From Frigoribacterium sp. VKM Ac-2836 (lineage in GTDB: Bacteria > Actinomycetota > Actinomycetes > Actinomycetales > Microbacteriaceae), in assembly GCF_013248995.1 (NCBI RefSeq), contig NZ_JABRPK010000002.1:992001-1056000 (forward strand): 64,000 bases of DNA, given 5' to 3'. The notes under the pieces are model-generated. The model was not told where the DNA came from. It searched no databases and saw only the letters and a list, made by a program, of their open reading frames with translations. Numbering within the stretch: the first letter of the stretch is position 1; each line of letters starts with the position of its first letter. The position numbers and the translations under genes were made by a program. Shown piece after piece: positions 6,275 through 59,413 of the stretch.

Positions 6275-6288
6275 CGACCCGCGCCTCC
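6275..6288 (+). repeat. Copy 1 of the 14-mer CGACCCGCGCCTCC
   Basis: An exact copy of a 14-mer that occurs five times in the window. This one lies just after the importer ATPase stop and ahead of the terminator stem. Its function is unknown; see the finding. Confidence 0.6.
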
Positions 6289-6296
6289 TGGTGTCG

Positions 6297-6341
6297 AAGG
6301 GGCCTCTGCGCCGTGCCGCGAGCACGGCGGAGGGGCCCCTT
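6297..6341 (+). terminator. Intrinsic-type terminator of the importer operon
   Basis: A two-part stem pairs 6297-6307 with 6331-6341 (first pair weak) and 6309-6316 with 6322-6329, with a CGCGA loop and one mismatch. It ends in TTTA. It isolates the ABC operon from typA. Confidence 0.8.
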
Positions 6342-6353
6342 TACCACGTGCCG

Positions 6354-6359
6354 TAGACT
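6354..6359 (+). promoter_or_regulatory. Probable -10 element of typA
   Basis: TAGACT lies directly after the upstream terminator. It would place transcription start near 6366, giving a leader of about 55 nt before typA. No convincing -35 is seen. Confidence 0.4.
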
Positions 6360-6419
6360 GTCTTCGCCGGGCTCTGACCCGACCACTTCCCCCTCTCTCT
6401 TCTCGTAAGGAATTCATCC

Positions 6420-8330
<1,911 letters not shown>

Positions 8331-9031: not shown

Positions 9032-10315
9032 TCAGCCGAAGAGCGTCTCGCCGACCCAGCCGTCCTGCGACGCTCCCGGCGGCACGGCGAAGATCGCCGA
9101 TCCGACGTGCTTGACGTACTCGTTCATCCGATCGTTCCGCGAGAGCGCCTGCTGGATCGGCACGTACTGCTTGCGCGGGTCGCGGTTGAACGCGATGAAG
9201 AACAGCCCGGCGTTCAGACGGCCGAGGTCGTCGTTGCCGTCGACGAAGTTGTACCCGCGGCGCAGCAGCGTGGCCCCGTCGTTGTTCTGCGGATGAGCGA
9301 GGGCCACGTGCGAGTCGGGGGCGATGGCCGGGCCACCGCCGGTCGAGGCCACGGCGGCGAAGTCGGGCGCGGTGAACTCGGTGCCGCCCGAGAGTGGGGC
9401 CCCCTCGCCCTTGTCGCGGCCGACGACGGTCTGCTGTTCGCCGAGCGAGGCGTGGTCCCACGTCTCGACCGTCATGCGGATCTTGCGCGCGACGAGGTAC
9501 GACCCACCGCTCATCCAGCCCGCACCGTCCGACGCCGCCGCCCAGACCCCGTCGTCGACCGCGGCGACGTCCTCGGCCCGCACGTTGGCCGTGCCGTCCT
9601 TGAATCCGAACAAGTTGCGCGGTGTCGTCTGACCTCGGGTCGTCGACGAGGTGCGGCCGAAGCCCAATTGGGACCACCGCAAGGAGGCGCGACCGAAGGC
9701 GATCCGCGAGAGGTTACGGATCGCGTGCACCGCGACCTGCGGGTCGTCGCTGCAGGCCTGCACGCAGAGGTCGCCGCCGCTCGCGGCCGCCACGAGCTGG
9801 TCGCCCGAGAAGTGCGGTAGGTCCACGAGGGCCGGAGGTCGCGTCGAGGCGAGTCCGAAGCGGTCGGTGCCGTCGCTCGCGGTGAAGAGGGTCGGCCCGA
9901 AGCCGATCGTGACGGTGAGCCCGGCCGCGGGCAGGCCGGTGGCCTCACCGGTGTCGTCGGGTGGGGCCAGCAGCTCGCCGCCCGTGGCACCGGTGGGACT
10001 CACGTCGAGCCCGGCGGTCAGGCGTGAGGCCGCGTAGCTCCAGTCCTTCAGCAGGTCGACGAGCTCGGCGCGAGTGACCGCGTCCGCGACGTCGAACGAC
10101 GCGAAGTGCAGACGGTCCTGGGCCGCGGTGACGATGCCCGACTGGTGGCGAGCGAAGAACGGGTAGGCCGCGGCGGCCCCGGACGACCCGGAGGCGCGTG
10201 CCTGCGACGCGCGGTCGGTACCGATCCCGACGCCGACCCCCAGCACCCCTGCACCGACACCCGTGCCGACCAGGCCCAGAAGGCCGCGACGCGAGAGGCC
10301 GCCTCCGTCGGCCAC
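9032..10315 (-). CDS. efeB: EfeB, Dyp-type haem peroxidase/deferrochelatase of the iron uptake operon
   Basis: A 427-aa exported haem enzyme that oxidises ferrous iron outside the cell or releases iron from haem (family knowledge). The N-terminus carries a Tat signal, LSRRGLLGL at residues 7-15, followed by a hydrophobic stretch. The DyP family hallmark GXXDG appears as GFKDG, and the C-terminal region has HVALAHPQNND followed by RRGYNF, the haem-ligand and Arg region of EfeB. The GTG start at 10315 lies 2 bp after the efeO stop. It is the last gene of efeUOB. Confidence 0.94.
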   Translation of the reverse strand: MADGGGLSRRGLLGLVGTGVGAGVLGVGVGIGTDRASQARASGSSGAAAAYPFFARHQSGIVTAAQDRLHFASFDVADAVTRAELVDLLKDWSYAASRLTAGLDVSPTGATGGELLAPPDDTGEATGLPAAGLTVTIGFGPTLFTASDGTDRFGLASTRPPALVDLPHFSGDQLVAAASGGDLCVQACSDDPQVAVHAIRNLSRIAFGRASLRWSQLGFGRTSSTTRGQTTPRNLFGFKDGTANVRAEDVAAVDDGVWAAASDGAGWMSGGSYLVARKIRMTVETWDHASLGEQQTVVGRDKGEGAPLSGGTEFTAPDFAAVASTGGGPAIAPDSHVALAHPQNNDGATLLRRGYNFVDGNDDLGRLNAGLFFIAFNRDPRKQYVPIQQALSRNDRMNEYVKHVGSAIFAVPPGASQDGWVGETLFG

Positions 10316-10317
10316 CG

Positions 10318-11514
10318 TCAGGCGACCAGAGCCGCGGTCAGCTCGCTGAGCGGCTCGCTGAGGGCGTTCACGGCATCCGACAGCTTCTTCTTGTCGGCGT
10401 CGGTCAGCTCGGTGTACGAGGGGTAGCCCGCGTCGAGGCTGCCGTGGCCGGCGAGCAGGGTCTCGACCTTCGTCAGCTGGGTGTCGATCGAGGTGGCCAG
10501 CTCGGGGTCCTTCTGGTCGACGACGTCGCGCACGCCGTCGAAGGCGACGCGGGCACCCTCGAGGTTGCCCTGGAAGTCGTAGAGGTCCGTGTGCGACCAG
10601 ATCTCCTCTTCACCGGTGATCTTGCCGGTGGCGACCTCGTCCATCAGGCCCACCGCGCCGTTGGCGATCGTGTCGATGCCGACGGTGAAGTCGCTCGCGG
10701 TGACCTCGTCGTAGAGGTCTTTCGTGTCGCTCGTCAGCAGGTCGGCGTAGTGCCTGCGTTCGTCGGTGGTCAGGGGGACGTAGACCGCGCCTCCGTTCTG
10801 GGCCGCCTCGGGCTGCCAGAGGTCCTTCTCGATGCGGTGCCAGCCGGTCCACTCGGTGCCGGGTTCGACGTCGGCCTCGCGGAAATCGATCTTCGGGTCG
10901 AGATCACCGAACGACTCGGCCACCGGCTCGATGCGCTCGTAGTGCGCTCGGGCCGCCGGGTAGAGCGCTCGCGCCTTCTCGTCGTCGCCGGCCGTGTAGG
11001 CGGCGAGGAACTCGTCGGTGGCCGTCACGAGCTGCCCGGTCTGATCCTTGACGTAGGCCACGTAGGCGGTGGCCGCGGCGTCGATCTGCTCCTTCTCGCT
11101 GCCCGTCGCCTCGACGGCGGTGCCCGAGTCGGTCACCGTGAAGGAGGCGCGCACGCCCTCGCCGACGAGCCCGGGCACGCAGGCGGTGTAGTAGTCGCCG
11201 GCCGGCACCGAGACGGTCATCGAGCCCGACGTGCCGGGGCCGATGTTCTCCTTCTCGCTGACGATGCGCAGGCCGTCCTCGGCGAGCAGCTCGAACTCGC
11301 TGTTGTCGCTGCCGGTGTTCGTCATGGTGAACGTGATCGGACCGCTGGGCACCGAGGTCGTCGACACCGTGCACGAATCGTCCGAGCCGTCCACGGTCAC
11401 CGTGGTGGCCGCGGACCCACCGGCGGGGGCGTTGGCGACGCACCCGGTGAGGGCGAGGGCGAGGACGGCGACGCCCGAGGCGACGGCGAGGGGGTGGACG
11501 GTGCGGACGATCAT
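10318..11514 (-). CDS. efeO: EfeO, iron-binding lipoprotein with cupredoxin and M75 domains
   Basis: A 398-aa lipoprotein (lipobox LTGC near residue 25). Residues about 40-130 form a cupredoxin-like domain. The C-terminal part of about 250 residues is the M75 peptidase-like domain with its HxxE metal motif, HYERIEP. It is thought to bind extracytoplasmic iron and hand it to the EfeU permease (family knowledge). The ATG overlaps the efeU stop (ATGA), so the two are translationally coupled. The two-domain form matches the complete EfeO type rather than the shorter EfeM. Confidence 0.94.
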   Translation of the reverse strand: MIVRTVHPLAVASGVAVLALALTGCVANAPAGGSAATTVTVDGSDDSCTVSTTSVPSGPITFTMTNTGSDNSEFELLAEDGLRIVSEKENIGPGTSGSMTVSVPAGDYYTACVPGLVGEGVRASFTVTDSGTAVEATGSEKEQIDAAATAYVAYVKDQTGQLVTATDEFLAAYTAGDDEKARALYPAARAHYERIEPVAESFGDLDPKIDFREADVEPGTEWTGWHRIEKDLWQPEAAQNGGAVYVPLTTDERRHYADLLTSDTKDLYDEVTASDFTVGIDTIANGAVGLMDEVATGKITGEEEIWSHTDLYDFQGNLEGARVAFDGVRDVVDQKDPELATSIDTQLTKVETLLAGHGSLDAGYPSYTELTDADKKKLSDAVNALSEPLSELTAALVA

Positions 11515-12410
11515 CTTGGTGCTCCTACGGTGCGGGGGGACGACGTGGTCGAGGGGGCGGACGTGCCGGGGGTCGCGGACGCGTCGGTCCCGTCAGGGGT
11601 GCCGGGGCGACGGCGGCGAGTCGCCCGGACGAAGAGCGGGACGACGACGGCGAGGTACGCGACCCACACGACGACCTGCAGCCAGCTCGGCGTCGGTGTG
11701 AAGTTGACGAGTCCCTGCAGCAGGGTGCCGTACCAGCTGGTCGGCGGCACGGCCGCACTCACGTCGAAGGCCAGGGAGGCGCGGCCCGGCAGGACGGACG
11801 CCTCCTGCAGGTCACCCACCCCGTAGGCGAGGACGCCTGCCGCCACGACGACGAGGAAATACCCGGTCACCCGGAAGAACCGGGCGATGTCGAGGCGGAC
11901 GACGCCCCGGAAGATCGCGATCTGGATCACGACCGCCGTCACGATGCCGAGGACGGCACCGATCAGAGGCGTGGCTCCGCCGCCGGTCGACTGCACGGTG
12001 GCCCAGACGAAGAGGGCGGTCTCGATTCCCTCTCGTCCGACCGAGAGGAAGGCCAGGGCGACGACCGCCCAGGCCCCACCGGCGAGGGCGCGTTCGAGGC
12101 CCGACTCGAGCTCGCCCCGCAGACCGCGGGCGGTGCGGGCCATCCAGAAGACCATCCAGGTGACGAATGCCACCGCGACGATCGACAAGCCGCCACCGAT
12201 GATCTCTTGTGCCTGGAAGGACAGGCCGTAGGCGCCGAACGTCAGGACGGCACCGATGCCGAGCGAGAGCACGACGGCCACCCCCACGCCCGACCAGAGT
12301 CGGGGGAGGACGTCGCGTCGTCCGACCTTGACCACGTAGGCGACGAGGATGCCGACCACGAGAGCGGCCTCGAGGCCTTCTCGGAGTCCTATGAGGTAGT
12401 TCGCGAGCAC
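11511..12410 (-). CDS. efeU: EfeU, FTR1-family ferrous iron permease
   Basis: A 299-aa membrane protein with about seven helices. It contains the two REGLE-type iron-binding motifs of the Ftr1/EfeU family: REGLE at residues 10-14 and REGIE at 126-130. These Glu residues line the iron path. The start is GTG at 12410, giving MLANYLIGLREGLEA with the first motif at its normal distance from the N-terminus. It is the first gene of efeUOB, with a DtxR-like iron box about 105 bp upstream. The C-terminal 35 residues are a Thr/Pro/Ser-rich tail. Confidence 0.95.
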   Translation of the reverse strand: MLANYLIGLREGLEAALVVGILVAYVVKVGRRDVLPRLWSGVGVAVVLSLGIGAVLTFGAYGLSFQAQEIIGGGLSIVAVAFVTWMVFWMARTARGLRGELESGLERALAGGAWAVVALAFLSVGREGIETALFVWATVQSTGGGATPLIGAVLGIVTAVVIQIAIFRGVVRLDIARFFRVTGYFLVVVAAGVLAYGVGDLQEASVLPGRASLAFDVSAAVPPTSWYGTLLQGLVNFTPTPSWLQVVVWVAYLAVVVPLFVRATRRRRPGTPDGTDASATPGTSAPSTTSSPRTVGAPR

Positions 12411-12590: not shown

Positions 12591-13937
12591 ATGAACTTCT
12601 CCGCCTCGCCGACGTCCGCGTCGCCCTCGACCGTCGGCGACCCGCGGCTCGAGCGCGTGCTCTTCGTCCACGCCCACCCCGACGACGAGACCATCACGAC
12701 GGGTGGCACGATCGCCGCTCTGGTCGAGATGGGCGCCGCCGTCACCGTCGTGACCTGCACCCGCGGGGAACTGGGCGAGGTGATCCCGGACGACCTCGCG
12801 CCCCTCCGAGACGATCAGACCGCCCTGGCCGTGCACCGCGAGGGCGAGATCGCCTCGGCCATGGACGACCTCGGCGTCGGTGACCACCGGTTCCTCGGGT
12901 CGTCCGGTGCCCGGACCCCGGGCCTCCCCGAGCGGGCCTACCGTGACAGCGGCATGGTCTGGCGTTCCGACGGGGTGGCCGGGCCGACACCCGACCTGCA
13001 CCCCGCGGCGTTCTGCGCCGCCGAGTTCGGCGAGGTCGTCAGCGATCTGTCGGCCGTCGTCCAGTCCGTGCGACCCACCGCGATCGTCAGCTACGACGAG
13101 GACGGCGGCTACCACCACCCCGACCACGTCCGGGCCAACCGGGTCGCCGTGCGCGCCGCGCGACTCGTCGGCGTGCCGTTCTTCGCGATCGTGGCCGGTG
13201 CCGAATCGGCCGAGGGTCCGGAAGCCGAGGCCCTCGCCGCCGACGAGACGGTCCTCACGATGGACACGCGACACGTCGCACCGCGGAAGATCGCCGCGCT
13301 CCGCGACCACCGCAGCCAGGTAGAGGTCGTCGACCTCCCGGGCGGCCGGGCCGGCATCCGCTTCCCCCACGGGGTCGTCGAACCCGTGACGGTCCGCGAG
13401 TCCTTCCGCTTCGTCCCCGATCCGGCGGCCGACGAGGGTGGGTCCGAGATGGCCCAGCTGACGACGGGCGGTCGCGTCGCCGCGCTCGTGCTGGCGCTCG
13501 CGGCCGGGGCCGTCTTCGGCACCATCGGTACCGTGATGCACCAGTCGACGGTCACCGTCGCCGACTCGCCCGTCTGGTCCGGGCTCGTGCTCGCCCTGCT
13601 GATGTGCCTCGCCCTCCTGGCGGGCCTGCGCTCGGTCTTCGGCTCGCGGGCCATGGCCGGAGCCGCCTCCCTCGGGCTGGTCGGGGCGCTCGTCGTCCTG
13701 TGGCAGGCGAGTCCCGGGGGATCGGTCCTGTTGCCCGCCAACACGCCCGCCTACGTCTGGCTCGTGGGGGTGGCCGTGATCGTCACCCTGGTACTCGGGT
13801 GGCCGCGGCTGCGGGGCCTTCCGGGCAGGGACGCGACGCCGCCCGGCGACGCGACCCGTGCCTCCTCGGTCGGGGCGCAGCCGGCAGGCGATAAGCTGGA
13901 CGCCCTGCCCGACGCGAAGGGAACCCCCCAGACGTGA
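12591..13937 (+). CDS. mshB: Mycothiol deacetylase MshB fused to a C-terminal membrane domain
   Basis: Residues about 20-285 are a PIG-L/MshB zinc deacetylase with metal motif HAHPDDE (27-33) and a second-ligand region YHHPDHVRANR. MshB removes the acetyl group from GlcNAc-inositol in mycothiol synthesis, in the cytoplasm (family knowledge). Residues about 300-430 then form four hydrophobic segments, starting VAALVLALAAGAVFG. In several actinobacteria a small separate membrane protein gene follows mshB, so this looks like a fusion of the two. Total length is 448 aa against about 290-300 for MshB alone. ATG 12591 is preferred (GTG 12588 is equally possible). fdxA overlaps its stop. Confidence 0.87.
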   Translation: MNFSASPTSASPSTVGDPRLERVLFVHAHPDDETITTGGTIAALVEMGAAVTVVTCTRGELGEVIPDDLAPLRDDQTALAVHREGEIASAMDDLGVGDHRFLGSSGARTPGLPERAYRDSGMVWRSDGVAGPTPDLHPAAFCAAEFGEVVSDLSAVVQSVRPTAIVSYDEDGGYHHPDHVRANRVAVRAARLVGVPFFAIVAGAESAEGPEAEALAADETVLTMDTRHVAPRKIAALRDHRSQVEVVDLPGGRAGIRFPHGVVEPVTVRESFRFVPDPAADEGGSEMAQLTTGGRVAALVLALAAGAVFGTIGTVMHQSTVTVADSPVWSGLVLALLMCLALLAGLRSVFGSRAMAGAASLGLVGALVVLWQASPGGSVLLPANTPAYVWLVGVAVIVTLVLGWPRLRGLPGRDATPPGDATRASSVGAQPAGDKLDALPDAKGTPQT

Positions 13938-14270: not shown

Positions 14271-15371
14271 GTGGCACTCGACCTGCCCGAGTTCCCCTGG
14301 GACGCGCTCGTACCGTACGCGGTCACCGCGCGCCGTCATCCGGGCGGCATCGTCGATCTCAGCGTCGGCTCGCCGGTCGACCCGACGCCCGACGTCGTGC
14401 GAGAGGCGCTGGCCGTCGCGACCGACGCCCACTCGTACCCCCAGGTGGCTGGCACCCCGGCCCTGAGGTCGGCGATCGCCGAGTGGTACGCGCGGCGACG
14501 GGGCGTCACCGGGCTCGGCGACGACAACGTGCTGCCGACCATCGGGTCGAAAGAGCTCATCGCCGGAATGGCGCTGTGGCTCGGCGTCGGTCCGGGCGAC
14601 ACGGTCGTGTACCCGACGAACGCCTACCCGACCTACGCGCTCGGTGCCGCCCTCGTGGGCGCGACGGCCCTGGCCTCCGACGATCCCGCCGAGTGGCCCG
14701 CGTCGACCAAACTCGTCTGGCTGAACAGCCCGGGCAACCCCGACGGTGCGGTCCTCGGCCTCGAGGCCCTGCGTGCCGCCGTCGCCCGCGCACGCGAACT
14801 CGGCGCCGTGATCGCCGGCGACGAGTGCTATGCCGAGCTCGGCTGGACGGGCGAGTGGGCCGACAGACCGACGCCGTGCATCCTCGACCCGCGAGTCGTC
14901 GGCGACGACCTCCGCGACGTCGTCTCGGTCTACTCGCTCAGCAAACAGTCGAACCTCGCCGGCTACCGCGCGGGATTCGTGGCGGGCTGCGACCACGTCC
15001 TCGGGCAGCTGCTCGCCGTCCGCAAGCACGCGGGTCTCATGCCTCCGGCCCCGGTGCAGCAGGCCATGGTGGTCACGTTGGCCGACGAGGCACACGTCAT
15101 CGAGCAGAAGGCGCGCTACGCGGCTCGCCGGGCGCGCCTCCTTCCGGCCCTCGAAGCGGCCGGCTTCCGCATCGACCGGAGCGAGGCCGGGCTGTATCTC
15201 TGGGCCACGCGCGACGAAGACGCGTGGGCCACCGTGGGCTGGCTCGCGGAGCGCGGCGTCCTGGTCGCCCCCGGGTCGTTCTACGGCCCGACCGGCGGCC
15301 GTCACGTGCGTGTCGCGCTCACGACGACGGACGAGCGTATCGAGGCGGCCGTGGGGCGACTCGGCGGCTGA
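14271..15371 (+). CDS. dapC: Succinyldiaminopimelate transaminase DapC
   Basis: A 366-aa class I/II PLP aminotransferase. The PLP lysine sits in SLSKQSNLAGYRAG, the substrate-side motif in WLNSPGNPDGAVLG, and the Asp/Tyr pair in GDECYAELGW. It lies directly after fdxA, the conserved actinobacterial location of DapC in the succinylase branch of lysine and diaminopimelate synthesis. dapD and dapE a few kb further on complete that branch. The start is GTG 14271, 10 bp after the fdxA stop. Confidence 0.9.
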   Translation: MALDLPEFPWDALVPYAVTARRHPGGIVDLSVGSPVDPTPDVVREALAVATDAHSYPQVAGTPALRSAIAEWYARRRGVTGLGDDNVLPTIGSKELIAGMALWLGVGPGDTVVYPTNAYPTYALGAALVGATALASDDPAEWPASTKLVWLNSPGNPDGAVLGLEALRAAVARARELGAVIAGDECYAELGWTGEWADRPTPCILDPRVVGDDLRDVVSVYSLSKQSNLAGYRAGFVAGCDHVLGQLLAVRKHAGLMPPAPVQQAMVVTLADEAHVIEQKARYAARRARLLPALEAAGFRIDRSEAGLYLWATRDEDAWATVGWLAERGVLVAPGSFYGPTGGRHVRVALTTTDERIEAAVGRLGG

Positions 15372-18184: not shown

Positions 18185-19159
18185 CTAGGCGTGCAGCTGC
18201 GAGTTCAGCGTGATTCCGTGGCCCTTGCGGGGCAGCACCTCGACGGCGCCGGTCAACGAGTTGCGTCGGAAGAGCAAACCGGGTTGACCCGAGAGCTCGA
18301 CGGCCTTCACGGTCTGCGGCGACCCGTCGTTGGTCGGGGTGCCGCCCACGACGACGACCTTCGTGCCGGCCGTCACGTAAAGTCCGGCCTCGACGACGGT
18401 GTCGTCGCCGATCGCGATGCCGATGCCGGCATTGGCGCCGAGCAGGGCACGCGCACCGATGGTGACCCGCTGGGTGCCGCCGCCCGACAGCGTGCCCATG
18501 ATGGAGGCACCGCCGCCGATATCGGACCCGTCGCCGACCACGACACCCTGCGAGATGCGCCCCTCGACCATGGACGAACCGAGCGTGCCCGCGTTGAAGT
18601 TGACGAAGCCCTCGTGCATGACCGTGGTGCCCGGTGCCAGGTGCGCGCCGAGGCGCACCCGCGACGCGTCGGCGATGCGGACGCGGTCGGGCGAGACGTA
18701 GTCGAGCATGCGCGGGAACTTGTCGATGCCGGTCGCGACGATGCCCGCGCGTCGAAGCGTCGGACGCAGGCGCGCGAAGTCGTCGGGGTGGACGGGCCCG
18801 GCGTTGGTCCAGGTGACGATCGGCAGGTGCGCGAAGAGGCCCTCGAGGTTGATCGTGTTCGGCTTCACCAGCAGGTGGCTGAGCAGGTGCAGGCGCAGGT
18901 ACGCGTCCGGGGTGGACGCAGGAGGCGCGCTCAGGTCGATCTCGACGGTCACCGGGACGAGGTCCACCGCGCGACGCTCGTCGGGGCCGGCCGCGTCGGC
19001 CAGCTCGGCCGGGACGATCTCGGGGTCACGGTCGGCCGGCAGGGCGCCGAGTCGGGGGGAGGGGAACCAGGTGTCGAGCGTGGTGCCGTCGTGCGAGACG
19101 GTCGCGAGCCCGTACCCGTAGGCGTGGGTCGGGGCGGTGGCGGTGGCGTCGGAAGTCAT
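18185..19159 (-). CDS. dapD: 2,3,4,5-tetrahydropyridine-2,6-dicarboxylate N-succinyltransferase DapD
   Basis: A 324-aa acyltransferase of the actinobacterial DapD type, which adds succinyl-CoA to tetrahydrodipicolinate in lysine/diaminopimelate synthesis. The C-terminal half shows left-handed beta-helix hexapeptide character ([18 protein letters not shown], then [15 protein letters not shown]) and the segment [11 protein letters not shown] start at ATG 19159 (MTSDATATA); longer in-frame extensions would run through the promoter. GATACT lies 9 nt upstream. It diverges from dapE, and both probably share regulation. Confidence 0.94.
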
Positions 19160-20309: not shown

Positions 20310-21565
20310 CCGTCGACGAGGCGGGGCGCGCCTCCTCGTCCCTGCTCTCGCACCGTGACCTCCGACGCCCGATCCCGCCGTCGAGGTGGTTCCTGCTGCG
20401 CTATCGGATGACGCCGTGGTGGGTCAGGGTGCTCGGCGTCTTCGTGCTGTCGCGTGTCGCGAGCACGATCGCGTTGCTGACCTTCGCGGGCGCCCAACAG
20501 GCCAACGCGTGGACCCTCGCGAGCCCCGACTACGGCAGCTTCGCCACCATCTGGGACGGCCACTGGTACTACATCATCTCCGTGGTGGGGTATCCGAGCG
20601 AGCTACCGGTCACGGGAGACGGTCACGTGGGCGAGAACGCCTGGGCGTTCATGCCCGCCTATCCGTTCGTCGTCCGGGGGCTGATGACCCTCACAGGGCT
20701 TCCGTTCGCGACTCTGGCCGTGGCCGTGTCGGTCGTCTGCGCGGCGGGGACGGCCTTGGTGTTCTACCGACTCATGCGACACTCGCTGCCCGAATCGACC
20801 TCGTTGTTCGCGGTCGTGTTGTTCTGCGTCGCGCCCCTGTCGCCGCTGCTGCAGGTGGCGTACGCCGAGTCGATGTTCCTGTTGCTGCTCGGCGCGAGCC
20901 TCTTGATGCTGGTCCGTCGGCAGTACCTGGCGATGCTGCCGGTCGTGCTCGTTCTGTCGTTCACGCGGCCCGGTGCCCTTCCGCTCGCCCTGGCCATCGG
21001 TCTCCACGGGCTGCTGCGGTGGTGGCACCGGCGGGACGACCCCTTTCCGGTGCGCGAACGGGTCCGCGTGGTGGTGTCGGCGGCGGCCACGGCCGTCTTC
21101 GGCGTCGCGTGGCTCGTCGTCGCCGGTGCGGTGACGGGTGTGCCGGGCGCCTACACCGAGACCGAACTCGCCTGGCGCGCCCCGTACATCGGCTACGGGC
21201 CGCTCGTGCCCTTCACCCCATGGGTCGACGGGGCGAACTGGTGGTTTCCGGGTGGTTCGGGCGTCGCCCTGCTCGTCGTCGTCCTGCTCGCCTTCACCGC
21301 CCTGATGCTGTCGCCCTGGGCTCGGCGGACCCACGTCGACCTGAGGCTCTGGGTCGTCGCCTACACGCTGTATCTGCTGGCCGTGTTCTTCCCGCAGTCC
21401 AGCACCTGGCGGCTCCTGATGCCGCTCTTCCCCGTGCTGGGCGTGCTCGCGGTGCCGCGCTCGACGATCTACCGGGCGGTGCTCGTCGCCGTGTTCCTGG
21501 CGGCGCAATGGGTGTGGCTCTACTACTGCTGGTGGGTTAACGGGTATGACTGGACGCCGCCGTGA
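20294..21565 (+). CDS. PIG-V-like membrane mannosyltransferase
   Basis: A 423-aa polytopic membrane protein with about nine to ten helices. The first extracytoplasmic loop contains WDGHWYYIIS, the WDGxWY motif of PIG-V/GT-C type glycosyltransferases that use polyprenyl-phosphate sugars. Further loops contain AYPFVVRG and YAESMFLLLL, also typical (PIG-V proteins have a YTESLF-like motif). It probably transfers mannose to a lipid or surface glycan on the outer face; the acceptor is unknown. GTG 20294 overlaps dapE by 16 nt. Confidence 0.8.
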   Translation: MADGLTVDEAGRASSSLLSHRDLRRPIPPSRWFLLRYRMTPWWVRVLGVFVLSRVASTIALLTFAGAQQANAWTLASPDYGSFATIWDGHWYYIISVVGYPSELPVTGDGHVGENAWAFMPAYPFVVRGLMTLTGLPFATLAVAVSVVCAAGTALVFYRLMRHSLPESTSLFAVVLFCVAPLSPLLQVAYAESMFLLLLGASLLMLVRRQYLAMLPVVLVLSFTRPGALPLALAIGLHGLLRWWHRRDDPFPVRERVRVVVSAAATAVFGVAWLVVAGAVTGVPGAYTETELAWRAPYIGYGPLVPFTPWVDGANWWFPGGSGVALLVVVLLAFTALMLSPWARRTHVDLRLWVVAYTLYLLAVFFPQSSTWRLLMPLFPVLGVLAVPRSTIYRAVLVAVFLAAQWVWLYYCWWVNGYDWTPP

Positions 21566-23019: not shown

Positions 23020-23046
23020 CGCGACTGGTGCGCCGCGCCTCCTGGG

Positions 23047-40368: not shown

Positions 40369-43300
40369 CCGCGGTGGAGCGCGCGCGGGACGCGAGTGAC
40401 CCCGGCGACCCGACCCGCGCCTCCTCGTCGCTCCTCGGCGCTGCCGAGATCGCCGACGCGCTGGGGCTGCCCACGCCGACCCCCGAGCAGCAGGCCGTCA
40501 TCGAGGCGCCACTCGAGCCCGCCCTCGTGGTGGCGGGCGCAGGCAGCGGTAAGACCGAGACGATGGCGAACCGCGTGGTCTGGCTGCTCGCCAACCGTCT
40601 CGTCGGCGTCTCGCAGGTCTTGGGGCTCACCTTCACCCGCAAGGCCGCCGGCGAGCTCGGTGAGCGCATCGAACGGCGGATCGCCCAGCTAGCGGCCGTC
40701 GGGCTGCTCGGCGACGAGGTCGATCCGTTCGACGTGCCCACCGTCTCGACCTACAACGCGTTCGCCAACGGCATCTTCCGTGACAACGCCTTGCGCGTAG
40801 GGCGCGAGAGCGAGTCGCAGGTGCTCGGCGACGCGTCCGCCTGGCAGCTGGCGCGCTCACTCGTCGTGGCCAGCCATGACGCACGCCTCGCCGGGCTCGG
40901 TCGGAGCGTCGACGGCATCACCGAGGCAGTCCTCCGTCTGAGCCACGCCCTGAGCGAGAACGTCACCGGGCCCGAGCCCGTGGCGCGGCTGGCCGACCGG
41001 TTCGTCGATCTCGCGAGCCTGCCGTCGACCAAGGGCAGCGCCTACAAGTCGGTCGTCGACGCCGTCGGTGCGGTGTCGGCTCTGCCTCCGCTGCTCGAAC
41101 TCGCCGCGGCCTTCGCCGACGAGAAGGCTCGCCGCGGCCTCGTCGAGTACTCGGACCAGGTGGCCCTCGCGCTCGAGGTCTGCGACACCGCACCGGGCGT
41201 CGTGGCCGATCTGCGCGACCGGTACCGTGTCGTGCTGCTGGACGAGTACCAGGACACCAGCGTCGTGCAGACCACCTTGCTGTCCCGTCTCTTCGAGGGC
41301 ACCGGGGTCATGGCGGTCGGCGACCCCCACCAGTCGATCTACGGATTCCGTGGCGCGAGTGCTGCGAACCTCGGCCGGTTCCCGGCGGACTTCGGTGCTC
41401 GGCCCGACGCCGTGTTCAGCCTCTCGACGAGCTGGCGCAACGCGTCGCGCGTGCTCGACGCCGCGAACACCGTCGTGGCCGAGCTCGCCCGCACCTCCGG
41501 TGCGGTCGTGGGTGAGCTGCGCCCTCGGCCCGGCGCTCCCGAGGGCCGCGTCGACCTGCTCTTCGACCAGACACTGCCGGGCGAGGCCGATCAGGTGGCG
41601 GCCTGGCTGCAGGACGAGTTGGCCGTCCCCACGGTCGTCGACGGCGAGCCCGCCCGCCGCACGGCCGCCTTGCTCTTCCGGTCGAAGAAGACCATGCCCG
41701 TGTTCGTCGAGGCACTCGAGGCACGTGGCGTGAAGTACCACGTCCTCGGCGTCGGCGGGCTGCTCCGACGACCCGAGGTCGTCGACCTCGTGTCCTGCCT
41801 CCGGGTGTTGCACGACCCCTCGGCCGGTTCCGAGGCCATCCGGCTGATGGCCGGGGCCCGTTGGCGCATCGGTGTGCGCGACATCGCGCGGCTGCGCGAC
41901 GTCGCGTCGTGGCTCTTCTCGCACGACCACGCTCAACAGCGTCTCGACGACCAGGTGGCCGCCGGATTCCGGGCGTCGGTGGCGGTCGGAGAGCACGGGT
42001 CCATCGTCGACGCCCTCGACTTCGTGGCCACCGCGCCCGTGACCCACCGCCAGCTCGCCGAGTTCAGCGCCGAGGGACTCACCCGCCTGCGGACGTTGGG
42101 CTCGCAGCTGGCTTTCCTCCGAGGCCGCACGGGGCTCGACCTCGTCGATCTGGTCACCCTGGTCGAGCACGAGATGCTGCTCGACGTCGAGGTCGCAGCG
42201 GCCACCGGGGCGCCCTCGGGCGGTGCGTGGCTGCAGGCCTTCGAAGACGAACTGGCCGGGTACGTCGCCACCGACGAGAACGCGGGGCTCGGAGGCTTCC
42301 TGTCATGGCTGGAGGCGGCCGAGCGTCGCGACGACATGGGGCCGCGGTCCGAGCAGGCCGAGCGGGGCACCGTGCAGCTGCTGACCATCCACGGCTCCAA
42401 GGGGCTCGAGTGGGACGTCGTGGCAGTGCCGCGGATGGTCGAGGGCGAGCTGCCGGGCACGTCTCGCGAGGGTGTGGGGTGGCTCGGTTTCGGCGAGCTG
42501 CCCTACGAGTTCCGCGGCGACGCGGCCGAGCTGCCCGTGCTCGGCTGGCGGGGCGTGGCCGACCAGAAGGAGTTCGACCAGGCGCTGAAAGCGTTCAAGG
42601 ACGAGCTGGTCGTCCGCCATCAGGCCGAGGAGCGACGGCTGGCCTACGTCGCCCTGACCCGTTCTCGTGACGCCCTGCTCGTCAGCGGTTCCTTCTGGAC
42701 GAGCGCCGTCCGCCCACGTCCGGCGAGCCGGTTCGTCGTCGAACTGGCCCAGGGCGGGCTCGTCCCGCCCGGTGACCTGCCCGAGCGACCGGACGACGAC
42801 GAGAACCCCCTCGCCTCCGCGTCACGCGAGCTCAGCTGGCCCCTCGACCCGCTGGGTCAGCGCCGCGCGGTCGTCGAGGACGCGGCGGCCCGGGTCGCCG
42901 CAGCGATCGACCGACCCTCAGCAGAGGAGTCCGTGGGAGCGAGGCGACCGGGGCCCCGGTCGAGATGGTCGACCGACATCGACCTGCTGCTGCTCGAACG
43001 CGACGCCGCACGGTCGGCAACGGCGCTGGCGCCCTTGCCGCAGCGCATCCCCGCCTCCCGTTTCAAGGACTACGTCGACGACCCGGCAGCGGTCGCTGCA
43101 GCACTCCGTCGTCCGCTCCCCGAACGGCCCTACCGGGCCACCCGCCTCGGCACGTTGTTCCACGAGTGGGTCGAAGAGCGTTTCCGGCCGACGGGGCGCG
43201 CCGAGACCCTCGACGCCTGGACGGACGAGAGCGACCTGGACGACGAACGCATCGGCTCGCCCGGGTCGGGCCCGGTCGATCCCGACGACGCCAGGCGGTT

Positions 43301-47396: not shown

Positions 47397-48135
47397 CGAG
47401 GCCGTCGCCGATCGAGACCGACTCGACCTCGGCGTCCTCGGGCGTCGCGGCCGCATCGACCAAGCGTGACCACACGCGACGGGCGGCTCTCGTGGCGATC
47501 TCGTGGATCGACAGCAGAGGAGGCGCGCTGAGGGGCCGAGTGCTCAGCTGACCGGCGATCGCGGGCCAGGCCGCGTCGGCCTCGCCGGCGTGGAGGTCGA
47601 GGCAGCGGGCACAGGCCGTCGTCCCGGGCACCGTCACGGGACCGATCCGCGCCTGACGATCGCCCACGCGCACCACGAGGTGTGTGAGGTCGGATCGCAC
47701 CCACTCGCGCACCACCGTGGGATCGAGGACGTGCCCGCCCACGAGGACACCCGTGGCGTGCCTCGGTGGGGGCAGGTCGCGGCTGGCCCGGCGGACGTCG
47801 GCACCGCAGGAGCTCAGGAGGCGCGCGACGGCATCGGTCACGGGGCCCGGCCCGGCGACGACGACGACGGGTGGCGGTCCACTCTCGGGGTGCTCACGGA
47901 CCAGGGCCGGCCGCAAGCGTTCCACGCAGGTCTCGACCGCCGTGTGATCGACTCCGAGATGGGCGACCAGCGTGGGTAGCCCACCGGCGCCGTGCCCGGC
48001 GGCGACGGCGGCGACCACCCGTTCGTCGAGCCTGCTGACCGGACTCAGGACGAGGGCCGGACGGTCGACGCCGACCTGGAGGGTCGCCGGATCACGCCAG
48101 ACGACGGGTGCGCGGGGATCGAGGACGAGGTGCAT
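47260..48135 (-). CDS. ThiF-like cyclodehydratase-type protein with zinc cysteines
   Basis: A 291-aa protein. The centre (VVVVAGPGPVTDAVARLL) resembles a weak nucleotide-binding fold of E1/ThiF-like proteins, and the cysteine pairs CARCLDLH and HPECGC would bind a structural zinc, as in the TOMM cyclodehydratase or ThiF family. No peptide substrate gene is seen, so a RiPP role is unsupported. M. tuberculosis has a similar gene in this position (Rv3196, from memory). ATG 48135 is chosen; the longer start adds a basic tail. The 3' end overlaps uvrD2 by 137 nt, and the conserved HPECGC cysteines are encoded inside that overlap. Confidence 0.72.
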   Translation of the reverse strand: MHLVLDPRAPVVWRDPATLQVGVDRPALVLSPVSRLDERVVAAVAAGHGAGGLPTLVAHLGVDHTAVETCVERLRPALVREHPESGPPPVVVVAGPGPVTDAVARLLSSCGADVRRASRDLPPPRHATGVLVGGHVLDPTVVREWVRSDLTHLVVRVGDRQARIGPVTVPGTTACARCLDLHAGEADAAWPAIAGQLSTRPLSAPPLLSIHEIATRAARRVWSRLVDAAATPEDAEVESVSIGDGLVTRASVTPHPECGCAALPRSDSPVVRRRGPAPTGSTTDGAAHAPW

Positions 48136-48211: not shown

Positions 48212-49606
48212 TCAGGCCCGGGGTGCGTCCGAGTCGGGCCCCGACTCGCCGGGCTCGGTGGCCGAACCGTCCTCGCCCTCGCGCGGGCGGTCGTCGGTCG
48301 TGTCGTCCAGCAGGTCTCGGATCGCCTGGTCGACGTCGTCGAACGCGGGCTCGTCGGACGTCAGTCGAGCCACCAAGGCCTCGGGGGCGTCGATGTCTGC
48401 GCTGGTCGGCACGATGTCCGGGTGCGACCAGAGGTCGTCTCGACGTTCGGCCCCGACGGCGTCGGACACGGTCTGCCAGAGGGCGGCCGCCTCGCGAAGG
48501 CGACGCGGGCGGAGTTCGAGGCCGACCAGTGTCGAGAAGGCCGACTCGGCGGGCCCACCGGCAGCTCGGCGACGACGCACCGTCTCGGCGATCGCCGCGG
48601 ACTTCGGGAGGCGCGCCGTGGCCTGGGCGGTCACGACGTCGACCCAGCCCTCGATCAGCGCCAGGGTCGTCTCGAGCCGGGCGAGCGCGGCGAGCTGCTC
48701 GTCGGTCTTCGGAGGAATGAGCGCGCCGCTCTTCATCGCTTCTTGCAGCTCGCCCGGGTTCGAGGGATCGAAGTCCACAGCGAGCTCTTCGAGTCGGGAC
48801 GTGTCGATGCGGATTCCTTGGGCGAACTCGCGGATGGACGAGATCAGGTGCAGGCGCAGCCAGCGGGCGTGGCGGAACAGGCGGGCATGCGCGAGTTCTC
48901 GCACCGCCAGATAGATCTGCACCTGGTCGATCTCGATGTCGAGACCCTCGCCGAAGGCGGCGACGTTCTGGGGGAGCAGGGCGGCCTGTTGCTCGTCGAG
49001 CAACGGGATGCCGACGTCTCCGCCGGACACCACCTCGGTCGAGAGCTGACCGACCACCTGGCCGAGCTGCATGGCGAACAAGGTGCCGCCGACGCTCCGC
49101 ATGACCTGGCTGGCCCCCGCGAGCATCGAGCGCATCTCTTCGGGGGCTTGGTCGCTGAGCACCCCGGTGAGGGAGTCGGCGATCGAGGTGGCCACCGGCT
49201 CGGCGAGCTGGCTCCACACGGGCATCGTGAGGCGGGCCCACTCGGCCCGTGTCACCAGGCGGGGGGTGGCGGTGAGTTCGGCGACGAACGTGACGTCGTC
49301 GAGCCACAGCGCAGCGACGTGGAAGGCCTGTTCGAGGGCTGCGGTCTCGGTCGCCGACGGGGCCACGGCCGTCTGTGCCCCGACGGCCGAGGCCTGCTCG
49401 GTCGCGATCGACCAGTCGATCCCGTCGCCGCTGCTGTTGACGGCGTTCTGCAACTGGCTCATGAGACGTGCCACGAAGGCGGGATCGTTCGGCAACCCTG
49501 CGGCCCCGGCCAACTGGGACGGATCGATCTCGGAACCGCCGGACAGGAACTGCCGCAGCATGTCACGGAACTCGTCCTCAGGCCCGCGCGGCGAATCATC
49601 GGTCAT
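48212..49606 (-). CDS. DUF2342-type zincin-like metallopeptidase
   Basis: A 464-aa mainly helical protein. The zincin-like motif is VRELAHARLFRHARWLRLHL, in which Glu and His (xExxH) match the family pattern, followed by ISSIREFAQGIRID. It is known as a zinc-dependent peptidase-like family in actinobacteria; some members are annotated as F420-associated. The substrate is unknown. The first 40 residues are acidic and the last 60 disordered. ATG 49606 follows a reverse-strand TAGCGT (49614-49619) by 7 nt: leaderless. It diverges from the PDZ-Lon gene, as in M. tuberculosis. Confidence 0.87.
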   Translation of the reverse strand: MTDDSPRGPEDEFRDMLRQFLSGGSEIDPSQLAGAAGLPNDPAFVARLMSQLQNAVNSSGDGIDWSIATEQASAVGAQTAVAPSATETAALEQAFHVAALWLDDVTFVAELTATPRLVTRAEWARLTMPVWSQLAEPVATSIADSLTGVLSDQAPEEMRSMLAGASQVMRSVGGTLFAMQLGQVVGQLSTEVVSGGDVGIPLLDEQQAALLPQNVAAFGEGLDIEIDQVQIYLAVRELAHARLFRHARWLRLHLISSIREFAQGIRIDTSRLEELAVDFDPSNPGELQEAMKSGALIPPKTDEQLAALARLETTLALIEGWVDVVTAQATARLPKSAAIAETVRRRRAAGGPAESAFSTLVGLELRPRRLREAAALWQTVSDAVGAERRDDLWSHPDIVPTSADIDAPEALVARLTSDEPAFDDVDQAIRDLLDDTTDDRPREGEDGSATEPGESGPDSDAPRA

Positions 49607-49727
49607 GCTGACTACGCTAGCTGCTGGCCGCACGAAGATCCTGGGATTCGGCCACCGCTCAGGGGCCTCCGCTCCGCTCGTGGCGAACGCCACCCGCGCC
49701 TCCCCGGCCGATCCCGAAAGGACCCCC

Positions 49728-54238: not shown

Positions 54239-55333
54239 ATGTCGAGACTCCGGGTGGTCCTCGCGCCCGATTCGTTCAAGGGAAGCCTCGGCGCATCACA
54301 CGTGACGGCCGCCCTCGCCGCGGGGTGGTCGCGGTCGCGGCCCGACGACCAGATCGTCGCGCTGCCGCTCGCCGACGGCGGAGAGGGCACCCTCGACGCG
54401 TTCGAGCGGGTCGTTCCCGGCAGCATGCGCCACGAGGTCGTCGTGGAGGGCCCCGACGGGCGACCGGTCACGGCTCCGTGGCTCGAGCTGCCCGACGGCA
54501 CGGCCGTGGTCGAACTGGCCTCGTCCTGCGGCCTCGGCCTCATGGGCGCGCCCGCGCCGCACGACGCGAACACCCGGGGCCTGGGCGGGGTCATCCGTGC
54601 GGCAGTCGACGCAGGTGCCGAACGGCTGCTCGTCGGCCTCGGTGGCAGCGCATCGACGGACGGGGGAGCGGGTGCCCTGGCGGCCCTCGGAGCTCGTGTC
54701 GTCGACTCGCTCGGCGAGCCCGTGGTCCCCGGCAATCGCGGGCTCAGCACGGCTGCCCGGGTCGATCTCTCGGGCCTGATGGCCCTGCCGGCCGATGGGG
54801 TGACCCTGTTGGTCGACGTGGACAGTCCGCTGCTCGGATACACGGGGGCCGCTGTCGTCTTCGGGCCGCAGAAGGGCGCATCGGCCGACGACGTCCTCGC
54901 GCTGGAACGAGGTCTCGAGCGCTTCGCGAGCCTCCTGGACGTCGATCCCGCGACGCCGGGGGCGGGGGCCGCGGGTGGGGCGGGGTTCGGCCTGCTCGCC
55001 TGGGGTGCCCGTCTCGAGCCCGGGGCCGTCGCCGTCGCGGACGCCGTCCGTCTGTCGGACGCCCTGACGGGTGCCGACGTCGTCGTCACCGGGGAGGGGC
55101 GTTTCGACGGTCAGACCGCGGCGGGCAAGACCGTGTCGGTCGTGCGCCGCTGGGCCGACGGGCAGGGAGTCCCGGTCGTCCTCGTCGCCGGTGTCGTCGA
55201 GGCGCCCACGGACGGCTTCGCCGACGTCGTGTCGACGACGCAGCTGGCGGGGGACGTCCTCGAATCGACGACCCGCGCCTCCTTCTGGCTGGAAGAGGCT
55301 GCCGCGCTGGTGGCCGGGCGGTGGGCGCGATGA
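54239..55333 (+). CDS. glxK: Glycerate 2-kinase
   Basis: A 364-aa kinase of the GlxK/GarK family, which phosphorylates D-glycerate to 2-phosphoglycerate. The N-terminus LAPDSFKGSLGA and the loop LADGGEGTLDAF are hallmark motifs, and GLGGSASTDGGAGAL forms the nucleotide site. Family length. ATG 54239 is used. The downstream amidohydrolase starts inside its stop codon (ATGA), suggesting co-expression. The upstream gap holds nothing else. Confidence 0.95.
   Translation: MSRLRVVLAPDSFKGSLGASHVTAALAAGWSRSRPDDQIVALPLADGGEGTLDAFERVVPGSMRHEVVVEGPDGRPVTAPWLELPDGTAVVELASSCGLGLMGAPAPHDANTRGLGGVIRAAVDAGAERLLVGLGGSASTDGGAGALAALGARVVDSLGEPVVPGNRGLSTAARVDLSGLMALPADGVTLLVDVDSPLLGYTGAAVVFGPQKGASADDVLALERGLERFASLLDVDPATPGAGAAGGAGFGLLAWGARLEPGAVAVADAVRLSDALTGADVVVTGEGRFDGQTAAGKTVSVVRRWADGQGVPVVLVAGVVEAPTDGFADVVSTTQLAGDVLESTTRASFWLEEAAALVAGRWAR
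55269..55282 (+). repeat. Copy 4 of the 14-mer CGACCCGCGCCTCC
   Basis: An exact copy near the 3' end of the glycerate kinase gene, where it encodes part of STTRASF. Confidence 0.6.
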
Positions 55334-57444: not shown

Positions 57445-57463
57445 GTGAGTGCAGTCCGCTCAC
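57445..57463. promoter_or_regulatory. Inverted repeat upstream of the HtrA-like gene
   Basis: GTGAG-N9-CTCAC (57445-57449 and 57459-57463) sits 10 bp before a TATGTT -10-like hexamer (57474-57479). It may be a regulator site for the protease gene; this is a weak prediction. Confidence 0.3.
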
Positions 57464-57525
57464 AGGCTCGCCGTATGTTCCGCCCAGCTTGGGCGACCAG
57501 GCTGTCAGGGCTTGGAAGGAGCACC

Positions 57526-59295
57526 ATGACCGACACCCCCCGCCACGACGGCACCGACGACGGCACCGACGAGGGCGCGCAGCGCACGCCCGACGGCACG
57601 GCCGACGGTTCCCAGGGCGCCACGGGCGACGACCGGGGCGCACACCCCGGCGTCTCGCCCACGACGCCGTACCCGGCCGATCAGGGCGTCACCTACGGTG
57701 CACCGCCACTGCCCGGCAGCACCCCGCAGGCCGGGGCGTTCGGGGCGGGCTCCGAGCACCAGGGTCCCGACCAGACGCAGCCGTACCCCGGCTCGTACCA
57801 GCAGCCCTCGACGTACCAGCAGCCAGGTGTCCATCCGCAGCCCGGGTCGTACCAGCAGCCGTCGTCCCACCACGATGCCGGCTCGTACCCACAGACCGGC
57901 TCGTACCAGAACCCCGCTTCGTACCAACAGCCCGGCTCGTACCAGCAGCCCGGCTCGTACCAGCAGCCGCCCGCCTACCAGCAGCCCGGTTCGTACGACC
58001 ACGCAGGCACCGATCCCTACCGTCAGTCGACCTCCGACCCGTCGGCGTTCGCGTACGACACCACGGCCTCGTACGGGGCAGCCGGATGGCAGGCGCCGCC
58101 GCAGAAGCCCAAGAAGAATCGCCGGGGTGTCGGTTCGGTCGCCGCGGCCCTCCTGGTGGGGGTGCTCGTGGGCGGTGCGGCGGGCGGTGGTGTGGCCGCC
58201 GTGCTCTCGCGCGATTCCGGGTCAGGGGTCTCGGCGACGGGGCAGTCCCGCGACCTCACGGTGAACGACTACGACGACGCGACGGTCGTCACCGCGGTGG
58301 CGGCGAAGGCGACGAAGTCGGTCGTCACGATCAACGTGACGGCGGGCGAGTCCGGCGGAACCGGTTCGGGAGTCATCCTCAGCGACGACGGCTTCATCGT
58401 GACGAACACACACGTGGTCACGCTGGACGGCGCGAGCGCGTCGGGCACCATCACGGTCACCCTCAGCGACGGCAGCATCCTGCCCGCCGAGGTCGTGGGC
58501 CTCGACCCGACCGTCGACCTCGCCGTTCTGAAGGTCGACGCGACCGGGCTCACCCCCATCGAGTTCGCCGACTCGTCGGCGTTGAACGTCGGCGACACGG
58601 CCGTCGCGATCGGGGCGCCGCTCGGGCTCTCGAACACGGTGACCGACGGAATCGTCTCGACCCTGAACCGCAGCATCACGGTGCAGTCCTCGGCGGCGCC
58701 GAGCGACGGCAGTGACCAGGGGCAGCAGAACGACAACAACGGCCAGGGCCCTTTCTCGTTCAACAACGGTGACGGCAGCACGCAGAACCAGGCCAGTTCG
58801 GTCATCTCGCTGCCGGTCATCCAGACCGACGCGTCGATCAACCCGGGAAACTCCGGTGGGGCGCTGCTCAACTCGCAGGGCGAGCTGATCGGCCTCAACG
58901 TCGCGATCGCGAGCTCGGGTGAGTCCTCCGGCAGCATCGGTGTCGGGTTCTCGGTGCCGTCCAACCTGGTGCAGCGGGTCGCGAAAGAGATCATGGCGAA
59001 CGGCAAGGCCAGTCACGGCCTGCTCGGGGCCAGCGTCAACGATGCGACGAGCGATGCGTCCGCCACCCGCGTCGGTGCCCTCATCGTGCAGCTCAGCCCC
59101 GGTGGTGCGGCCCAGAACGCCGGCCTGCGTCAAGGCGACGTCGTGACCGAGTTCAACGGCGTGCCGATCAGCGACCGGACGGACCTCACCGCTCAGGTCA
59201 GATTCCTCGCCGGAGGGGCGACGGCCGAGCTGACCTACGTCCGCGACGGGAAGACCGACAAGGCGAACGTCACCCTCGACACCCTGACCAGCTGA
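57526..59295 (+). CDS. HtrA/DegP-like serine protease with YQQP-repeat N-terminus
   Basis: A 589-aa protein. Residues 1-195 are a disordered cytoplasmic tail with repeated SYQQP-like units. One membrane helix (about 205-228) is followed by a trypsin-like domain: His in TNTHVVTL, Asp in TVDLAVLKV, Ser in GNSGGALLN. A PDZ domain ends the chain (LGASVNDATSDAS to LTAQVRFL). Protease and PDZ are outside the cell. It probably handles envelope stress. ATG 57526 has AAGGAG (57516-57521). A Gly/Asn/Gln-rich insert near residues 400-425 is unusual. The -10 candidate is TATGTT at 57474. Confidence 0.93.
   Translation: MTDTPRHDGTDDGTDEGAQRTPDGTADGSQGATGDDRGAHPGVSPTTPYPADQGVTYGAPPLPGSTPQAGAFGAGSEHQGPDQTQPYPGSYQQPSTYQQPGVHPQPGSYQQPSSHHDAGSYPQTGSYQNPASYQQPGSYQQPGSYQQPPAYQQPGSYDHAGTDPYRQSTSDPSAFAYDTTASYGAAGWQAPPQKPKKNRRGVGSVAAALLVGVLVGGAAGGGVAAVLSRDSGSGVSATGQSRDLTVNDYDDATVVTAVAAKATKSVVTINVTAGESGGTGSGVILSDDGFIVTNTHVVTLDGASASGTITVTLSDGSILPAEVVGLDPTVDLAVLKVDATGLTPIEFADSSALNVGDTAVAIGAPLGLSNTVTDGIVSTLNRSITVQSSAAPSDGSDQGQQNDNNGQGPFSFNNGDGSTQNQASSVISLPVIQTDASINPGNSGGALLNSQGELIGLNVAIASSGESSGSIGVGFSVPSNLVQRVAKEIMANGKASHGLLGASVNDATSDASATRVGALIVQLSPGGAAQNAGLRQGDVVTEFNGVPISDRTDLTAQVRFLAGGATAELTYVRDGKTDKANVTLDTLTS
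57786..58010 (+). repeat. Imperfect repeats encoding SYQQPG-type units
   Basis: At least nine imperfect copies of a unit such as GGCTCGTACCAGCAGCCC, encoding Y-Q-Q-P, in the HtrA-like N-terminal tail. Repeats of this kind vary in number between strains by slippage (inference). Confidence 0.8.
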
Positions 59296-59363
59296 GGGCC
59301 GACCTCGGCCGGTGCGGCGGGGGTCGGGTCGCGAAGGCGTCCCGGCCCCCGTTCGCGTGTTGC

Positions 59364-59369
59364 TAAGCT
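59364..59369 (+). promoter_or_regulatory. Candidate -10 of the surface-polymer cluster
   Basis: TAAGCT would put the start near 59376, giving a leader of about 70 nt before ATG 59445. One copy of the 14-mer lies in this leader. Confidence 0.4.
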
Positions 59370-59399
59370 CGCCACGATCCCTGCGGACGTCCGCAGTCC

Positions 59400-59413
59400 C
59401 GACCCGCGCCTCC
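59400..59413 (+). repeat. Copy 5 of the 14-mer CGACCCGCGCCTCC
   Basis: An exact copy in the 5' leader of the first glycosyltransferase gene. Confidence 0.6.

Follow-up and report, generated by a model that had tools for sequence, protein, structure and literature searches.

What does a 14-base word, CGACCCGCGCCTCC, do in a bacterial genome where it recurs exactly five times within 64,000 nucleotides? The stretch, from Frigoribacterium sp. VKM Ac-2836 (positions 992,001 to 1,056,000 of contig NZ_JABRPK010000002.1), is called the window below. An earlier note, made from its letters, had proposed a genome-wide motif, not a codon or protein signal, with segregation, repair, replication polarity, methylation or uptake as possible causes. 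The observation is real and large, and that note understated it. From the list of causes, an uptake site fits the measurements best: the motif has, in our judgement, about an even chance of working as a DNA uptake sequence, a role suggested by its distribution. Replication polarity found no support, either in the strand counts of the genome (129/131) or in the single-contig relative G015.

In the window, CGACCCGCGCCTCC is the commonest 14-mer, and its five exact copies lie where the earlier note had placed them, on the strands given there (Table 1). The rough expectation of 0.01 copies was right for base composition alone (0.010); Markov models of orders 1-7 trained on the window predict 0.007-0.36. 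Allowing one mismatch, there are 10 copies, against a mean of 0.6 in shuffled sequence, and none of 100 shuffles reaches 10. Two near-copies reported before are real, with one mismatch each, and their spans are now 30180-30193 (minus strand) and 49690-49703 (plus strand); three others, at 3224, 13852 and 38423 (all plus), had been overlooked. The core 9-mer CGCGCCTCC occurs 24 times, compared with 5.4 in shuffles.

In the 3.27-Mb genome the exact 14-mer occurs 260 times (forward strand 129, reverse strand 131) and the reversed-pattern control 0 times. Markov models trained on 464 kb of the genome, with the expectation scaled up to the whole, predict 0.35-4.1 copies (orders 3-6). A count equal to the order-6 background had been named as the outcome that would speak against a genome-wide motif; that model gives 4.1, and the observed count exceeds it about 60-fold. 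CGACCCGCGCCTCC is the strongest version of a motif that tolerates more variation, with the core CGCGCCTCCT and a preferred left flank GACC. The core occurs 1214 times in this genome versus 18 for its reversal, and 730/48, 952/38 and 892/29 times in three other Frigoribacterium genomes. The most enriched 10-mer in the 464-kb sample is CCGCGCCTCC (140 copies versus 10). In sampled sequence a T stands directly after 24 of 30 exact 14-mers, and the mismatch lies in the first three bases in 24 of 37 one-mismatch copies. Neither CGACCCGCGCCTCC nor its core is its own reverse complement; the motif is non-palindromic.

Counting the 14-mer in relatives, as had been proposed, gave 93-442 copies in all 16 searched genomes of genus g1, which we take to be Frigoribacterium, with 0-2 in the reversed control. 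A count over 299 genomes from 85 genera singles out g1 and g32 alone (g32: 9-56 copies, six genomes), the others having 0-6. Genus g32 is probably Curtobacterium; the best stretch of a Curtobacterium oceanosedimentum contig gives matches of 93% and 89% with the two g32 genomes compared, and of 79-83% with the seven other genera compared. Among 80 matches listed for the 14-mer in named sequences, very near genomes left out, 13 are Frigoribacterium and 3 Curtobacterium. Elsewhere among 179 genomes CGCGCCTCCT is near its own control, with a few mild exceptions: G069 (g55) 216/75, G176 (g32) 90/46, G023 (g9) 52/14 and G132 (g49) 41/13. The excess in G069 is the largest outside g1, and two more g55 genomes have none (G138 65/58, G190 49/76). 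In a virus collection at least 120 stretches have the word; among 80 listed, all carry a single copy except one with two.

Such a word might simply follow from codon usage, from amino-acid repeats or from mutational bias, and the high GC content of the genome (guanine plus cytosine, about 70%) speaks for this. A simple gene caller found 430 genes in the 464-kb sample, with 91% coding. There, 52 of the 140 CCGCGCCTCC copies are in intergenic DNA, though this makes up 9% of the sample, a four-fold over-representation between genes. Coding copies use all six placements, unevenly, and encode the peptides TRAS, GGAx, EEAR, PRLL, TAPP and others. Across 20 synonymous-codon shuffles, coding CCGCGCCTCC averaged well under its true number (88 versus 10.3, maximum 16), as did coding exact 14-mers (19 versus 1.2, maximum 4). 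A codon or peptide signal is ruled out by these shuffles, by reversed controls near zero and by other genera of like GC that lack the word, and the probability left to a by-product of this kind is next to negligible. The proposal of a genome-wide motif that is no codon or protein signal was thus borne out by the genome counts, both gene orientations, the many peptides and the shuffles.

Conservation in place was followed in 60-kb syntenic stretches of six sibling species (40 kb for one). The exact 14-mer gave 224 ortholog pairs, of which 168 are identical, 48 differ by one substitution, 8 by two or three, and 0 by a gap. Counted by pairs, 75% are kept versus 24%, a figure that overstates the effect since all 224 pairs belong to just 9 ortholog groups; tests by group therefore replace it. 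The 14-mer is kept at 0.63 versus 0.28 for matched flanking 14-mers, and is higher in 7 of the 9 groups (one-sided p=0.02). For the core 9-mer, in 37 ortholog groups across 7 species, the values are 0.70 versus 0.35 for matched words, higher in 29 groups (one-sided p=2e-6). The core changes mostly by substitution, a gap falling within it in 15 of 997 ortholog pairs. Near-copies of the window are exact in some siblings, that at 49690 in six of six and that at 13852 in two. With so few gaps, mobile insertion of a repetitive extragenic palindromic (REP) element or a miniature inverted-repeat transposable element (MITE) was rejected for Frigoribacterium. A binding site for a nucleoid-associated or chromosome-architecture protein, with selection conserving each site, would likewise be spread over the genome and conserved in place. 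It is quite unlikely all the same, since more than 1000 selected sites, many of them in genes, and words specific to a genus would be unexpected for a structural protein.

Between genes, the core is densest where these converge (2.9 per kb), less dense in tandem intervals (1.9 per kb) and sparsest in divergent ones (0.70 per kb). The convergent excess would suit a transcription terminator, an RNA hairpin or a REP-type mobile element, and so would the close inverted pairs of the core found in the Curtobacterium sample in 12 of the 23 intergenic intervals that have it. Against this, 44 of 55 core-bearing intergenic intervals in Frigoribacterium hold the core once, and 7 hold an inverted pair in terminator-type order; 136 of 205 core copies are within genes, 82 along the gene direction and 54 opposite; and orthologous places differ mainly by substitution. 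This explanation is highly improbable for the motif as a whole. A terminator hairpin fails for the single and intragenic copies of Frigoribacterium and may apply to Curtobacterium. A 200-kb sample of one Curtobacterium genome favours CACCGCGCCTCC and CCGCGCCTCCAG, which share the core with Frigoribacterium and differ in their flanks; 31 of 39 core copies are intergenic, and coding copies are barely above codon shuffles (16 versus 10.8, maximum 17). In a second Curtobacterium genome, sampled over 40 kb only, the core is scarce, and words resembling GGCCGGGAGGCC are preferred (4-5 copies of each). As separate observations, Curtobacterium G119 (L201-L210) has long intergenic hairpins such as GGCCTGGAGGCGCGGTGCCAGCTGGCACCGCGCCTCCAGGCC, densest between convergent genes, and a palindrome TGCCAGCTGGCA with 8 strand-wise matches, that is 4 places, versus 0.02.

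That four of five exact copies lie on the plus strand, as had been pointed out, is true in the window and does not extend to the genome; the bias is an accident of the window. The suggested check of skew relative to the origin was run in G015, where the bias stays within chance for every choice of origin (best 58 of 93; mean best for random strands 55; P=0.18). No consistent strand preference was found along 20 sampled blocks of contig C1. Replication polarity as the cause was rejected on the balanced strands together with the lack of bias around any G015 origin. These same results weaken the idea that a helicase-nuclease or translocase reads the motif as a polar signal for recombination or segregation, similar to Chi, to FtsK-orienting polar sequences (KOPS) or to SpoIIIE recognition sequences (SRS). 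A non-palindromic, very frequent motif at the DNA level is what such a signal would be, and the window encodes a UvrD/PD-(D/E)XK helicase-nuclease. The intergenic preference does not resemble Chi, nor does a length of about ten fixed bases, and we regard a polar signal as very unlikely.

Of the 20-kb blocks sampled, two in which the core is scarce (0 and 2 copies) carry prophage genes (integrases, terminase, portal, head proteins). Their prophage DNA, 23.8 kb in two stretches, has 0 core copies versus 11.1 expected at the density of the rest; these two stretches were the only ones examined, and their blocks were selected for motif scarcity. The absence bears on a further explanation, a highly iterated motif that belongs with a DNA methyltransferase, with replication or with repair and has no uptake role, like highly iterated palindrome 1 (HIP1, GCGATCGC). 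HIP1 too reaches very high numbers across related genomes, and parts of it are recognised by orphan methyltransferases (PMC4390886, in part). Abundance and presence in genes are similar here, and one other genus, g47, has a palindromic word, GCAGGATCCTGC. The Frigoribacterium motif is non-palindromic, in excess between genes, dependent on the genus and absent from both prophage stretches, so that a HIP1-like role seems unlikely.

The genome also has genes of the kind that transformation would need. The comEA gene adjoins comEC, and a Tad/Flp-type cluster encodes T2SSE, T2SSF, DUF4244 and TadE proteins, DUF4244 being a small protein with a Flp-like TAEYA stretch. Tad-type clusters are needed for transformation in the actinobacterium Micrococcus luteus, as part of PMC4322843 describes. 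For dprA, a natural transformation gene, 14 of the 16 genomes give one nearly full-length match. In the genome studied here dprA is split into pieces about 18 kb apart (G000:C1:604243-622724), and the gap, read as far as C1:614000, has serine integrase, terminase, portal and head genes. In G002 it is also in two pieces about 18 kb apart, within G002:C1 170430-188500.

If the motif is an uptake sequence, the word would be a self-recognition tag preferred by a putative surface DNA receptor of the natural-transformation machinery, and tagged DNA of the cell's own kind would be taken up and then recombined. Copies would arise by mutation and would be copied and kept via transformation, a biased conversion that may account for their spread. 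They would be tolerated where gene function permits, with the highest density expected between genes. Related Microbacteriaceae genera would have dialects of their own, possibly of one homologous system.

Several results weigh against the uptake reading. First, comEC is present in 98 of 100 genomes of the family, with or without an enriched motif; being nearly universal, it says nothing about which genomes carry the motif. Searches for TadE gave matches in 9 of the 16 Frigoribacterium genomes, 8 of them above the family cut-off, dprA is in two pieces in 2 of the 16 (this one included) with the motif abundant in both, and no receptor candidate turned up, no gene search aimed at a receptor having been made. 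The copies are spaced at random (coefficient of variation 1.09, 93 copies in G015), 2 of the 9 exact 14-mer groups are kept less well than their controls, and flank identity is 0.84-0.95 with no trend, the surroundings of the motif being not visibly less conserved. The prophage stretches are lower in GC (0.62), which by itself lowers the chance of the word; part of their deficit is thus due to composition and to the choice of blocks for scarcity. Finally, since the form in the sampled Curtobacterium genome is mostly intergenic, often paired and in coding DNA at about the shuffle level, it may be a terminator or REP-like element with another role.

Words of other genera were surveyed in 15 further genera, 80 kb each. 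GGCATCCG-type words were found in g2, g7, g63, g79 and g80, and GACGCATCCG in g49, with left flanks specific to the genus in part of them; genus g5, near Frigoribacterium in LepA trees, favours CGCAGGATCCG. These words can be lined up by eye on C[A/C]TCC or ATCC. The survey gave no clear motif in g35, g15, g22 and g8; in whole-genome counts for g8 and the first g22 genome GGCATCCG(N)C is 5- to 7-fold over control, so samples of 80 kb can miss moderate cases. Whole genomes have 2830 copies of GGCATCCG(N)C versus 77 reversed in G071 (g57) and 3236 versus 200 in G155 (g79), numbers in which some places are counted twice, as the pattern GGCATCCGN{0,1}C double-counts some minus-strand places. The excess over the reversed control runs from <1 to 37 as a continuum without a clean gap, about two-fold being usual in genera with no motif seen; by hand count, GGCATCCG forms are at least 8-fold over control in at least one genome of about 27 of the 85 genera. 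Frigoribacterium itself is at 1.4- to 1.8-fold, and genomes disagree within g85 (17-fold and 2.3-fold) and within g18 (17-fold, 3.5-fold and 3.2-fold). In four genera with such words, coding GGCATCCG copies were five to seven times as numerous as in codon shuffles (79/12.7, 59/8.3, 61/9.6 and 42/7.8).

Other candidates from these genera were rejected. The automatic motif fit for g49 drifted into codon periodicity and was dropped, and the words in excess in g18 and g84 reflect codons or protein, almost all of them being in one frame. Three further observations were made. The palindrome of g47 (G061, L249-L252) has 10 strand-wise matches (5 places) in 80 kb versus 0.16 expected. Genus g79 (G093, L261-L264) has an intergenic repeat around GCGGGAGGGGACGGG, with the 9-mer GGGGACGGG intergenic in 7 of 7 places. 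In g51, GGCATCCG(N)C falls below its reversed control (G065 26 versus 70; G134 23 versus 76), the opposite of most genera.

The finding widens into a question about the whole family Microbacteriaceae. It is possible, with a chance somewhat short of even, that these Actinobacteria share a family-wide DNA self-recognition, with genus dialects (CGCGCCTCCT, GGCATCCG forms, CGCAGGATCCG) recognised by a putative receptor on a Gram-positive Tad/ComEA machine, and that switches of dialect help to isolate genera sexually.

The copies in the window are collected in Table 1. A different repeat of the window, at 57788-57968 (minus strand), consists of seven copies of GGCTGCTGGTACGAGCCGG (0-3 mismatches), spaced by multiples of 18 bases within a trypsin-like/PDZ protease gene, and is likely a protein repeat.

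Table 1. Copies of the 14-mer and of its core in the window, by position, strand and setting.
Feature	Position	Strand	Setting
Exact CGACCCGCGCCTCC	6275..6288	+	Intergenic, 1 base past a TAA stop; ABC transporter gene on one side, TypA/BipA gene on the other
Exact CGACCCGCGCCTCC	25699..25712	-	Within DUF1003 gene, gene on same strand
Exact CGACCCGCGCCTCC	40411..40424	+	Within UvrD-helicase/PD-(D/E)XK nuclease gene
Exact CGACCCGCGCCTCC	55269..55282	+	Within glycerate kinase gene; unchanged in 6/6 siblings compared, surroundings 78-88% identical
Exact CGACCCGCGCCTCC	59400..59413	+	Intergenic; unchanged in 6/6 siblings compared
One mismatch, TGACCCGCGCCTCC	3224..3237	+	Within gene
One mismatch, CGACCCGTGCCTCC	13852..13865	+	Within gene; exact form in siblings G008 and G009
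One mismatch, CCACCCGCGCCTCC	30180..30193	-	Within gene of opposite strand
One mismatch, CGACCCGCACCTCC	38423..38436	+	Within gene
One mismatch, CCACCCGCGCCTCC	49690..49703	+	Between called genes; exact form in 6/6 siblings compared
Core 9-mer CGCGCCTCC	9..17	-	
Core 9-mer CGCGCCTCC	9683..9691	-	
Core 9-mer CGCGCCTCC	10190..10198	-	
Core 9-mer CGCGCCTCC	10786..10794	+	
Core 9-mer CGCGCCTCC	11143..11151	-	
Core 9-mer CGCGCCTCC	11775..11783	-	
Core 9-mer CGCGCCTCC	15133..15141	+	
Core 9-mer CGCGCCTCC	18921..18929	-	
Core 9-mer CGCGCCTCC	20327..20335	+	
Core 9-mer CGCGCCTCC	23034..23042	+	
Core 9-mer CGCGCCTCC	25509..25517	+	
Core 9-mer CGCGCCTCC	28630..28638	+	
Core 9-mer CGCGCCTCC	29737..29745	+	
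Core 9-mer CGCGCCTCC	47519..47527	-	
Core 9-mer CGCGCCTCC	47817..47825	-	
Core 9-mer CGCGCCTCC	48607..48615	-	

Uptake sequences with dialects have been described from Neisseriaceae and Pasteurellaceae, both Gram-negative. Among part of the matches in the open literature, judged by title and the beginning of the abstract, none describes an uptake-sequence system in Actinobacteria, Microbacteriaceae or Gram-positives; with subscription journals and preprints outside this scope, that is weak evidence of novelty. The term 'uptake sequence' is also absent from the main text of PMC4322843 and PMC8467076. If the motif is an uptake sequence, sequence-tagged transformation would have evolved again or would be far older, a receptor would be implied in a cell without an outer membrane, and competence would be predicted in bacteria for which we found no report of it. 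Even if the function differs, more than 1000 copies per genome of a conserved, genus-specific word are an unexplained feature of a well-sampled family.

The uptake signal sequence (USS) of Pasteurellaceae has flanking AT-rich helper tracts. No strong tracts of this kind were seen around the Frigoribacterium motif, which is of another sequence and from another phylum. Similar to the USS, it is abundant among relatives, which in the Pasteurellaceae are competent, and one orientation is commoner in reading frames, here 82 versus 54 (PMC2346458 and PMC1626085, each in part). With Micrococcus luteus, whose transformation depends on a Tad/Flp pilus, the likeness is in the machinery: this actinobacterium carries comEA/comEC and tad clusters like those of the present genome (parts of PMC4322843). 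HIP1 of cyanobacteria is likewise an extremely abundant short word common to related genomes (parts of PMC4390886), but it is a palindrome, whereas the Frigoribacterium motif is non-palindromic and enriched between genes.

A close comparison in form is with the DNA uptake sequence (DUS) of Neisseriaceae, whose receptor is ComP, a type IV minor pilin. According to parts of PMC3630211, the DUS has dialects with a common short core and also forms inverted pairs at terminators; parts of PMC2397512 describe it as conserved above its surroundings, located in the core genome and absent from recently acquired genes. The motif described here shares with it very many copies, a non-palindromic form, genic and intergenic positions, inverted pairs near gene ends, conservation above the surroundings and variants in related species, which here are possibly built on a short core (PMC3630211 and PMC2397512, in part). 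Frigoribacterium has few of the inverted pairs and Curtobacterium many, and the surroundings of the Frigoribacterium motif lack the visibly lower conservation that the 'permissive region' result for the Neisseria DUS would suggest. Unlike the Neisseriaceae, Frigoribacterium belongs to a Gram-positive, high-GC family.

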